This document shows, in pieces, positions 10,022-16,020 of a stretch of DNA of 36,097 nucleotides; within the stretch, counting starts at the first letter, position 1; every line of letters starts with the position of its first letter. The DNA comes from Coriobacteriia bacterium (lineage in GTDB: Bacteria > Actinomycetota > Coriobacteriia > Anaerosomatales > PALSA-660): NCBI GenBank assembly GCA_025361505.1, contig JANYKZ010000059.1, forward strand, positions 1 to 36,097, written 5' to 3'. Under the pieces are notes generated by a model, which searched no databases, was not told the origin of the DNA, and saw nothing but the letters and a program-made list of their open reading frames with translations. The position numbers were made by a program, and so were the translations under genes.

Positions 10022-11386
10022 TCAGCCGGCCAGCGAGCGGACGATGTCGGACTTGCTGATGATCCCGATGAGCTTGTCGCCCTCGATGACGGGGATCCGG
10101 GCTACGTCGCGCTCCATGATCAGCGTGGCCACATCGGAGACGAGCGCCTCCGGCGAGACGGTCACCGGATCGGGCGTCATGACGTCCGCGACGCTGGCGG
10201 CCACCGCCTTGCGCAGGGCGGACTCGTAGCGGTCTGTCGACCCGGGAGCGAAGACGTAGCCGCCGAGCAGGCTCAGGTACGTGGGGAAGTGGACCTTCAC
10301 GTCCTGCATGATCAGATCGCTCTCGGTCACGAGCCCGACCAGCCTGTCTCCCTCGACCACCGGCAGCGAGCCGATGTGCTTCTCGGTCATGAGGTGCGCG
10401 GCGTCGGTGACCGTCATATCCGTCCCGACAGTGACGGGATCGGGGGTCATGATGTCGCGCGCGGTGAGTTCGGTCATCGGGCGTCCCTCCATCGTGGGTC
10501 GGGCCCCGGCCGCGAGCAGCGGGCGGAAGGCCTCGGGAAGATATGCAACCACATCCTCGGCGGTACAACAAACCGCGGTGAGCGCGTCGGCCGCGGCGGC
10601 GCCCGCGGAGCCGTGCAGATATGCGCCCAGTGCCGCGGCCTCGAGGGCGGGGGTTCCCTGGGCAAGCAGCGTCCCGATGATGCCGGACAGGACGTCGCCG
10701 GTCCCCAGAGTCGCCAGCTCCGGCCCGCCGGTCGGGTTCACGACGATGCGGCCGCCCCCCGCCACGAGCGTCCCGGGACCCTTGAGCACGACGGTAGCGC
10801 GACCGACCGCGAGCGAGCGCGCGGCGCCGTCGCGGTCCGCGTCGACCTCGGCACGGCTGATGCCGAGAAGGCGCGCGGCTTCGCCAGCGTGCGGCGTGAG
10901 CACCGTGGGGGCGGAACGGGCTGCGACGAGGGACAGGTCCGATCCCAGCGCGTGGAGCGCGTCGGCGTCGATGAGCAGCGGGAGCGTCACGCGGGCGACC
11001 AGCTCTCGGACGGCTTCCGCGGTCGCTCGGCCGCGCCCCAGGCCCGGCCCGAGCACGACCGCGTCGGCCGATCCGGCGGCCGTGAGCACGGCCTCGACGG
11101 CGTCGGATGCGAAGACACCGGACGCGTCCGCCCGCACGGCCAGCTTCACGGGAGCGGTGAGTTTGATCTCCACGACCGACAGCGACGGTTCGGGGACCGC
11201 GACCGTGACGTACCCCGCGCCCGCACGAAGCGCGGCGGTGGCGGCGAGGCACACCGCTCCGGTCAGCCCCGGGGCTCCTCCCACGATCAACACGCGGCCT
11301 CGGGTCGCCTTGTGGTCCGACTCGCGGGGCGGCCGGACGAGCCGCGCGTACTCGGACGCGTTCCAGGACTCGCGCTGTCCGCTCAC
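10022..11386 (-). CDS. nnrD: ADP-dependent NAD(P)H-hydrate dehydratase fused to a CBS-domain pair
   Basis: Residues about 20-290 form a YjeF C-terminal-type dehydratase that repairs damaged NAD(P)HX: VLIVGGAPGLTGA near the N-terminus, LTPHAGEAARLLG, VVLKGPGTLVA and the diagnostic ATLGTGDVLSGIIG. The usual N-terminal epimerase domain (NnrE) is absent. Without a stop codon the frame continues into two CBS domains (about 309-360 and 399-454, each beginning with an IMTPDPVTV/VMTPDPVTV motif), which commonly bind adenine nucleotides. An internal Shine-Dalgarno and ATG at Met304 suggest the CBS part can also be made alone (10022-10477, 151 aa). The start is GTG with an AAGGAGG Shine-Dalgarno. The assignment is firm for both halves; the functional meaning of the fusion is unknown. 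Confidence 0.9.
   Translation of the reverse strand: MSGQRESWNASEYARLVRPPRESDHKATRGRVLIVGGAPGLTGAVCLAATAALRAGAGYVTVAVPEPSLSVVEIKLTAPVKLAVRADASGVFASDAVEAVLTAAGSADAVVLGPGLGRGRATAEAVRELVARVTLPLLIDADALHALGSDLSLVAARSAPTVLTPHAGEAARLLGISRAEVDADRDGAARSLAVGRATVVLKGPGTLVAGGGRIVVNPTGGPELATLGTGDVLSGIIGTLLAQGTPALEAAALGAYLHGSAGAAAADALTAVCCTAEDVVAYLPEAFRPLLAAGARPTMEGRPMTELTARDIMTPDPVTVGTDMTVTDAAHLMTEKHIGSLPVVEGDRLVGLVTESDLIMQDVKVHFPTYLSLLGGYVFAPGSTDRYESALRKAVAASVADVMTPDPVTVSPEALVSDVATLIMERDVARIPVIEGDKLIGIISKSDIVRSLAG
10475..10490 (-). promoter_or_regulatory. Internal Shine-Dalgarno and ATG for the CBS half of nnrD
   Basis: GGAGGG (10485-10490) lies 7 nt before an in-frame ATG (10475-10477) that opens MTELTARDIM, exactly at the start of the CBS module. 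No stop codon separates this from the dehydratase domain. The arrangement is what a separate CBS gene would have, so it may give an independent short product or be a remnant of one. Confidence 0.55.
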
Positions 11387-11896: not shown

Positions 11897-13726
<1,830 letters not shown>

Positions 13727-13761
13727 GTTCTCGACCTCCGGGTCGCTGGGTTGTGGTCAGG

Positions 13762-13838
13762 AGGACCCTCTACGACTGTGCGCGGGCGCAGCAGCCGCCG
13801 GCGCATCGAGGGTGCGTGCGCATCGCGCACAGGGTCCT
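13762..13838 (-). other. Long stem between the ribozyme and the glmS ribosome binding site
   Basis: On the minus strand, AGGACCCU (13831-13838) pairs perfectly with AGGGUCCU (13762-13769). The stem then continues with GUGCGCG/CGCGCAC (right arm 13778-13784) after an 8-nt one-sided bulge. A second copy of GGACCCU at the 3' edge of ribozyme P4 could compete for the same GGGUCC arm. It could be a 5' stabilising stem, an attenuator or a switch; no function is proven. Confidence 0.55.
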
Positions 13839-13845
13839 TCAGGGT

Positions 13846-13993
13846 CCGCACCGTTTTGTCTCCGTGGTCGCCCGCGGGCTTTGTCGGTGCGGTCACGACA
13901 CCTCGATGAGATGCCGGGGAGCCATCCGCCGAATTTTTCGATGAGCTCCCGCCTCGTCGACTGCCATGTTCAGGTGCAGGCAGTCCCGGCGCT
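13846..13993 (-). ncRNA. glmS ribozyme (glucosamine-6-phosphate-activated self-cleaving riboswitch)
   Basis: The RNA upstream of glmS matches the glmS ribozyme. It starts with the cleavage-site motif A|GCGCCGGGACUGCC (cut expected between 13993 and 13992). P1 is ACUGCC/GGCAGU (13979-13984 with 13960-13965) and is followed by the conserved CGACGAGG. The core reads AUCGAAAAAUUCGGCGGAU, flanked by GGGAGC/GCUCCC. P2 pairs CGCC with GGCG. P3 is CGGCAUC/GGUGUCG (13910-13916 with 13896-13902). P4 is CCGCACCG/CGGUGCGG (13885-13892 with 13846-13853), containing P4.1 CCGCGG-GCGA-CCACGG. In known examples GlcN6P acts as a cofactor for cleavage and the cut mRNA is degraded, lowering GlmS. The class is recognised from memory of the consensus and was not tested by a covariance search. 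Confidence 0.93.
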
Positions 13994-14143
13994 TCGGTGG
14001 TGCGGTGTCAGATGCCGACGGCCCCTCCCTCCCGCCACCGGTGAGCGGTCCTCGGACCCGGTGACTACGTGGAGAATCGTAGCACCCGTCGGGTGTCGTG
14101 TTCGGTCACGGTTCGTTGACGGCTCGCGCAAGCGGACGGTGGC
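13994..14143 (-). other. Upstream leader of the ribozyme; glmM 3' end
   Basis: This is the rest of the 417-nt glmM-glmS gap. It holds a short CACCC/GGGTG hairpin (14083-14095), a -10-like TACGAT (14076-14081), and a purine-rich tract with three adjacent G-runs (about 14020-14034) just before the ribozyme. No ORF in it looks like a gene. Confidence 0.4.
14076..14081 (-). promoter_or_regulatory. Candidate -10 box for glmS ribozyme transcript
   Basis: TACGAT on the minus strand matches four of six bases of the vegetative -10 consensus and lies about 85 nt before the ribozyme cleavage site. I found no good -35 at 16-18 nt, so this is a weak proposal; glmS may instead be read through from glmM. 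Confidence 0.25.
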
Positions 14144-15478
14144 TCAGCCGAGTTCGTGTTCGACGACCGCGACGAGCCTGTCGACGCTGGCCTGCGCGAC
14201 GTCCGGGTCGGAAGCCTCGACCATGACCCGGACGAGCGGCTCGGTGCCGCTCGAGCGCACGAGCACGCGCCCGCTCACTCCGAGGAGCTCCTCCTCGGCC
14301 GCGATCGCGGACGCGAGGGCGGCGCTGGTCGCGACGCGGCCCTTGTCGGCCACCCGCACGTTCACCAGGACCTGCGGATAGCGCTTCATGATCGATGCCA
14401 GCTCCGAGAGGGACTTGCCCATGACACGCATCACGCGGGCCAGCTGCAAGGCTGTCAGAAGACCGTCGCCCGTCGTGGTGTGCTCCATGAAGATCACGTG
14501 GCCCGACTGCTCTCCTCCCAGCATGGCTCCCATCGAGCGCATCTGGTCGAGCACGTAGCGGTCCCCGACCTTGGTCTTGATCACGCGGATGCCGATACCG
14601 CGCATCGCGACGTCGAAGCCCAGGTTGGTCATCACCGTTCCGACGACGGTGTCGTAGGGAAGCCGGGACTCGCGCTTCAGTTGCGCCGCGACGATGGCCA
14701 TCATCTGATCCCCGTCGATCTCGGCGCCCGCCTCGTCGACCGCGAGCACGCGGTCCGCGTCGCCGTCGTGCGCGATGCCGAGGTCGGCCCCCGACGAGCG
14801 GACCAGCTCGACGAGCGGATCGAGGTGCGTCGACCCGCAGGCCGCGTTGATGTCCATGCCGTTCCAGTCGCAGTTGATCGCGACCACCTTGGCTCCCAGA
14901 CGCTCGAGGGCGATCTGACTCGTCCGCGCGGCCGCCCCATGCCCGCAGTCGAGAGCGATCTTCAGACCGTCCAGCCGCTCGGGGACCGTCGCGACCGCGT
15001 GCGCGACGTAGCGTTCGATCGCGTCCTCGATCGGGTGCGCCACGCCGACGCGCGCGCCGGTCGGGCGAACGGGGCGGTCGCCGGAGGTCACGTGCGACTC
15101 GATCCGGTCCTCGAGCTCGTCGGGGAGCTTGAACCCATCGCGGCTGAAGAACTTGATGCCGTTGTACTCGGCGGGGTTGTGCGAAGCGGAGATGACGACC
15201 CCGCCGTCGGCGCCCAGTTCGCGTGTCAGGAACGCGACCGCGGGCGTCGGGACGATCCCGGCGAGCAGCGCGTCACAGCCCGCGGAACAGATTCCGGCGA
15301 CCAGCGCCGCCTCGAGCATGTCGCCGCTGATCCTGGTGTCCTTGCCCACGACGATGGAGCCGCGACGGCCGTCCGCAAGGAAGGCGCCGGCGGCCTCGCC
15401 GAGACGGAATGCGAGTTCGGGAGTGAGCTCGGAGTTCGCGATGCCGCGGACCCCGTCGGTTCCGAAGAGACGGGACAT
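14144..15478 (-). CDS. glmM: Phosphoglucosamine mutase
   Basis: GlmM converts glucosamine-6-phosphate to glucosamine-1-phosphate, the step after GlmS. The product is 444 aa from the chosen start and begins MSRLFGTDGVRG, as the family does. The phosphoserine loop is VVISASHNPAEYNG (Ser99), the metal loop contains DGDADR, and the C-terminal phosphate-binding segment is VRSSGTEPLVRVMVE. I chose ATG at 15478 rather than the track's 15499 because AAGGA stands 9 nt before it and family alignment starts there. GlmM and GlmS lie side by side, so the pathway order is reflected in the gene order. Confidence 0.96.
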   Translation of the reverse strand: MSRLFGTDGVRGIANSELTPELAFRLGEAAGAFLADGRRGSIVVGKDTRISGDMLEAALVAGICSAGCDALLAGIVPTPAVAFLTRELGADGGVVISASHNPAEYNGIKFFSRDGFKLPDELEDRIESHVTSGDRPVRPTGARVGVAHPIEDAIERYVAHAVATVPERLDGLKIALDCGHGAAARTSQIALERLGAKVVAINCDWNGMDINAACGSTHLDPLVELVRSSGADLGIAHDGDADRVLAVDEAGAEIDGDQMMAIVAAQLKRESRLPYDTVVGTVMTNLGFDVAMRGIGIRVIKTKVGDRYVLDQMRSMGAMLGGEQSGHVIFMEHTTTGDGLLTALQLARVMRVMGKSLSELASIMKRYPQVLVNVRVADKGRVATSAALASAIAAEEELLGVSGRVLVRSSGTEPLVRVMVEASDPDVAQASVDRLVAVVEHELG

Positions 15479-15562
15479 GGATGCGTCCTTGTCGTCCAAG
15501 GGCGCTCGCCTCGTGCGGCGCGCCCGGCTGGTCCCCTATGGGCAGATGATACCGCTCACACA

Positions 15563-15624: not shown

Positions 15625-16020
15625 CTAGCGCTTGCTGAACTGCGGCTTCTTGCGCGCCTTCTTCAGTCCGTACTTCTTGCGCTCGACCATGCGCGGGTCG
15701 CGGCGCAGAAGGCCTTCCTTCTTGAGGTCGGCGCGGTAGTCGTCGCCGGCCTCCAGCAGCGCACGGGAGATGCCGTGGCGCAGCGCGCCGGCCTGGCCCG
15801 AGAGGCCGCCGCCGTGGAGCTTGGCGATGACGTCGAACTTGCCGACGGTGTCGGTCACCTTGAACGGCGACTCGATGAGGGTCATGAGTACGGCGCGGCC
15901 GAAGTAGCCCGCGGCCTCACGGCCATTGACGGTGATGGTTCCGGTGCCGGGCATCAGGCGCACGCGCGCGACCGAGGTCTTGCGGCGTCCGGTGCCGAGG
16001 TAGACAGCCTTATCGGTCAT
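15625..16020 (-). CDS. rpsI: 30S ribosomal protein S9
   Basis: S9 sits in the head of the small subunit, and its C-terminal tail reaches the P-site tRNA. The 131-aa product has the family start [16 protein letters not shown], the [15 protein letters not shown] segment and the conserved basic C-terminus ending KKPQFSKR. It follows rplM after 6 nt, the widely conserved L13-S9 pair. Confidence 0.98.

Follow-up and report, generated by a model that had tools for sequence, protein, structure and literature searches.

The glmS ribozyme is best known from B. subtilis and T. tengcongensis. In tested members of the class, GlcN6P binds the ribozyme and participates in the cleavage chemistry (PMC6154101); the scissile position lies between A-1 and G1 (PMC11602151), and the cleaved glmS message undergoes degradation (PMC11477304). 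In 2007, the class was reported from few bacterial groups only (PMC2258182). The locus described here lies in a 36,097-nucleotide stretch of DNA (the window), and its glmS leader, judged from the sequence, holds a complete and ordinary glmS ribozyme, a further member of this known family. Like the RF00234 members of B. subtilis and T. tengcongensis, it has the cleavage site, the core blocks, the helices P1, P2, P3, P4 and P4.1, a putative P2.2 pairing, a position above glmS and one copy per genome; unlike them, it has GC-rich P1, P4 and P4.1 stems (65% GC overall), and a GC-rich linker of 109 nt separates it from the start codon of glmS. The genome had been described as of actinobacterial type, in agreement with the closest named GlmS relatives (82-74% identity), which are mostly metagenome-assembled genomes labelled Coriobacteriia, Actinomycetota/Actinobacteria or Anaerosomatales, the last being an order of Coriobacteriia within Actinomycetota.

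Regarding its identity, the Rfam glmS model (RF00234, gathering score 37) matches positions 13836-14004 of the minus strand with 92.7 bits and an E-value of 1.9e-20, and cmscan aligns it from end to end (model positions 1-167 of 167). RF00234 is the only Rfam family matched in the window, and it is single-copy genome-wide. The original prediction of a glmS ribozyme is therefore confirmed by a full-length match well above the cut-off, returned by the covariance-model search that it had proposed; all the parts that it named (cleavage motif, P1, core, P2, P3, P4 and P4.1) were found, and its interval, 13846-13993, runs exactly from A(-1) through the final P4 base.

As for the genomic setting, the ribozyme sits between glmM and glmS, on the same strand as both. 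The controlled gene, glmS, at 11897-13726 (minus strand), encodes a glutamine-fructose-6-phosphate aminotransferase of 609 aa (TIGR01135, 853 bits, cut-off 418), and acpS is downstream of it; the upstream gene, glmM, at 14144-15499 (minus strand), encodes a phosphoglucosamine mutase (TIGR01455, 567 bits, cut-off 447.6), and rpsI lies farther upstream (15625-16020, minus strand). The 109-nt linker, counted from the end of the RF00234 model to the glmS start codon, includes a Shine-Dalgarno sequence, GGAGGT, at 13734-13739 (minus strand), 7 nt 5′ of the ATG. Elsewhere in the window, a single 454-aa frame at 10022-11386 (minus strand) combines an NAD(P)H-hydrate dehydratase domain with two C-terminal CBS domains.

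Sequence and alignment together place the predicted cleavage site between A13993 and G13992 (minus strand, as are all the elements that follow), the G being the first of GCGCC, and this is the same cut position proposed originally. The alignment, made with MAFFT, comprises 63 ribozymes from the order of the window and from other families of the phylum. Across it, AGCGCC at the cleavage site, GACGAGG, UCGA and UCGGCGG are invariant; taken as A|GCGCC (13993-13988), GACGAGG (13958-13952, 7/7 bases invariant), AUCGA (13942-13938) and UCGGCGG (13932-13926), the core positions are invariant or nearly so, and the window ribozyme contains the AUCGA...UUCGGCGGAUG core stretch. P1 is a hairpin spanning 13959-13985, in which 13985-13979 pairs with 13965-13959 (97% of cells paired, two-sided changes in 4/7 pairs). 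P2, spanning 13917-13950, joins 13950-13945 to 13922-13917, with two-sided changes in every pair, and encloses the core hairpin, in which UCGA (13941-13938) and UCGG (13932-13929) occur without variation, together with CGGAUG. P3, spanning 13896-13916 (13916-13911 with 13901-13896), appears both in the RF00234 match and in the minimum free energy fold, and has 83% of its cells paired. P4, spanning 13846-13892 (13892-13886 with 13852-13846), encloses P4.1 (13878-13872 with 13867-13861), and all 13 counted pairs of the two helices have two-sided changes. P1, P2, P3, P4 and P4.1 are recovered in the minimum free energy fold of 13727-13992 of the minus strand (z -3.37). The P2.2 pseudoknot (13927-13991) was drawn by eye, guided by the 5-53 pair (PMC7125110), and joins CGCC (13991-13988) to GGCG (13930-13927); it yields no covariation because both strands are invariant. 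A candidate P3.1 of three pairs, UCA with UGA, can also be drawn by eye and was kept outside the pair counts.

The structure derived from the model pairs 89.4% of the cells of the alignment, compared with 75.2% in column shuffles; when the partners are slid by 1-3 columns, pairing falls to 32-52% of cells. Two-sided changes amount to 312 versus 97 in the shuffles, the covariation score is 0.422 versus 0.171, and helix covariation thus far exceeds both controls. The signal sits in P1, P2, P4 and P4.1, while the invariant core hairpin contributes none; we think that the shortfall in P2 pairing reflects in part shifts of the stem frame between families in the MAFFT alignment. The expectation that GC-rich stems would be a source of covariation was well founded, since 26 pairs change on both sides among the 63 sequences.

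A plain -35/-10 scan gave no canonical sigma-70 promoter for the leader. A search for TGnTAnnnT with at least 4/6 hexamer matches gave a predicted extended -10 promoter, TGCTACGAT, at 14076-14084 (minus strand), and 44 of 48 members of the order have a similar element 58-97 nt 5′ of the cleavage site; over all loci tested, such an element occurs in 3.6% of shuffled upstream segments. Because this element is conserved upstream, transcription likely starts near 14069, and the ribozyme is likely part of the glmS message.

The linker itself folds into a GC-rich hairpin, GGACCCUGUGCGCG...CGCGCACAG...AGGGUCC (13761-13838, minus strand), and a small hairpin that takes in part of the Shine-Dalgarno sequence (z -2.0). 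These folds would suit control at translation or termination, in which binding of GlcN6P would hide the Shine-Dalgarno sequence or make the 109-nt linker fold into a terminator, but the scan found no terminator-like site, the linker sequence is unconserved, and such control would leave the invariant catalytic core unexplained. In the 48 members of the order, moreover, the Shine-Dalgarno sequence is paired at 0.62, versus 0.66 with shuffled flanks; a hairpin that hides it is not supported, as its pairing is not above that of the shuffled flanks, and control of this type is extremely improbable. A conserved second structure between ribozyme and glmS was likewise rejected, since linker sequences differ among relatives.

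The preferred reading is that the 5′ leader of glmS carries a standard glmS ribozyme-riboswitch, in which, by homology with the tested members, GlcN6P would induce self-cleavage and decay of the glmS mRNA; we give it a probability of about 95%. The extended -10 promoter just upstream would produce the leader transcript, in which the ribozyme would fold with an open GlcN6P pocket; when abundant, GlcN6P, the product of GlmS, would bind as a catalytic cofactor, and the RNA would self-cleave at the A13993-G13992 step. RNase J, following the B. subtilis pattern, would then degrade the downstream glmS mRNA with its 5′-OH end, and less GlmS would be made. In that species, RNase J reportedly degrades the cleaved glmS message, as described by Collins et al. 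in 2007. The genome of the window encodes an RNase J homologue (567 bits, cut-off 400); this gene is weakly discriminating and permissive only, because the control search gave a match in 13 of 14 genomes, over the cut-off in nine. In this scheme, the sequence, structure, covariation, position, conservation and RNase J gene come from the present analysis, and ligand dependence, cleavage and the decay route are carried over from the family.

Regarding distribution, the counts rest on the standard Rfam model. RF00234 matches were found in 48 of 61 genomes of the order (that of the window and 60 relatives) and, at the level of the class, in 55 of 300, where a single match is weak and partial; a draw of 397 genomes across the phylum gave 75 with a match. 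With these counts, the host background is not unusual, and the class is established in the order; the emphasis placed originally on an unexpected background and on rarity was overdrawn, given the order and phylum figures. In the class beyond the order of the window, full matches occur in five genomes of one family (f17), with glmS following the ribozyme in the three confirmed by script; these members differ from the window copy by a short P1 and a weakly matching P4.1. A core-only partial match of 26.4 bits, below the cut-off, was seen in genome G493 (L200, 301-339), and glmS was not seen in the fetched stretch around it. Other Actinomycetota ribozymes (families f30, f36, f20, f45 and f41) have the same architecture and, at every locus that the script could check, lie above glmS. 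Over all, the glmS start codon is 49-216 nt downstream in 97 of 100 ribozyme loci, that of the window included; the remaining three, all from f41, failed the motif filter of the script, so that their downstream gene was not placed. No ribozyme was found at two Collinsella glmS loci or at 20 GlmS loci whose hosts belong to other phyla or are unnamed. Among the papers searched, with dedicated distribution surveys outside this scope, no title, abstract or searched passage reported actinobacterial glmS ribozymes.

The three f41 loci, L148, L149 and L150 (genomes G094, G120 and G238), come from small, AT-rich genomes within the phylum. Their matches cover ∼240 nt, about positions 401-643 of each locus, and differ from the window ribozyme by an insert of ∼50 nt within the core hairpin, by GCGCA or GCGAA, in place of GCGCC, after the cleavage site, and by loss of the 5-53 pair.

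Within the order, the 13 relatives without the ribozyme include seven whose GlmS is 73-79% identical to that of the window and three with a divergent GlmS (50-51% identity). An orthologous glmS without the ribozyme is found at L182-L187 and L194 (glmS at position 1500; L187 and L194 on the reverse strand); several relatives are of this kind, and the ribozyme is therefore dispensable in this order. No degenerate remnant of the ribozyme was found at E ≤ 1 in the leaders of the seven, so that loss looks like deletion and not slow decay where this was tested. Several ribozyme-less relatives retain TGGTATAAT or TGCTATAAT shortly before glmS; with the extended -10 element kept near glmS in several sequences, the pattern resembles a deletion that took the ribozyme out from between the promoter and the ribosome-binding site. 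At L189, L190 and L191, which have the divergent GlmS and no ribozyme, a different gene precedes glmS, an apparent glmS replacement. In the GlmS tree, the ribozyme-less orthologues are scattered at several points among sequences with the ribozyme, and mapping ribozyme presence onto the tree takes four or more changes on branches with good support, counting the outgroup rows; as the tree is rooted at the midpoint only, the direction of change is inferred. The simplest reading of these sequences would be repeated loss of the ribozyme within the order, plus glmS replacement in one branch.

Such repeated loss among relatives, and the few non-standard pairs that the RF00234 alignment marks in the window copy, in P1 and P4.1, could point to a decayed, inactive ribozyme that retains structure only. 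Against this, the window copy keeps every core base that is invariant in the 63-sequence alignment, its helices are intact and its fold is as expected, and the relatives tested lost the ribozyme without leaving the remnants that decay should leave; a decayed copy is very unlikely because the core is intact.

In conclusion, the standard ribozyme-riboswitch leaves the known glmS mechanism unchanged, and the locus contributes a GC-rich ribozyme set with strong helix covariation. The genome counts indicate that the glmS ribozyme is common in parts of Actinomycetota, compared with the description of few groups in PMC2258182, and some modest extra value lies in the losses seen repeatedly within the order and in the f41 variants with their larger core. 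Pairs of relatives that share a similar promoter but differ in whether the ribozyme follows it would help in asking how much the cell gains from the switch. More tentatively, and with odds slightly against it, the ribozyme of the Actinomycetota glmS leader may be old and lost many times, with the Anaerosomatales losses placed after a retained promoter and before the ribosome-binding site, and with the core enlarged in f41; if this is true, the group would be a natural record of a ribozyme switch being discarded or remodelled.
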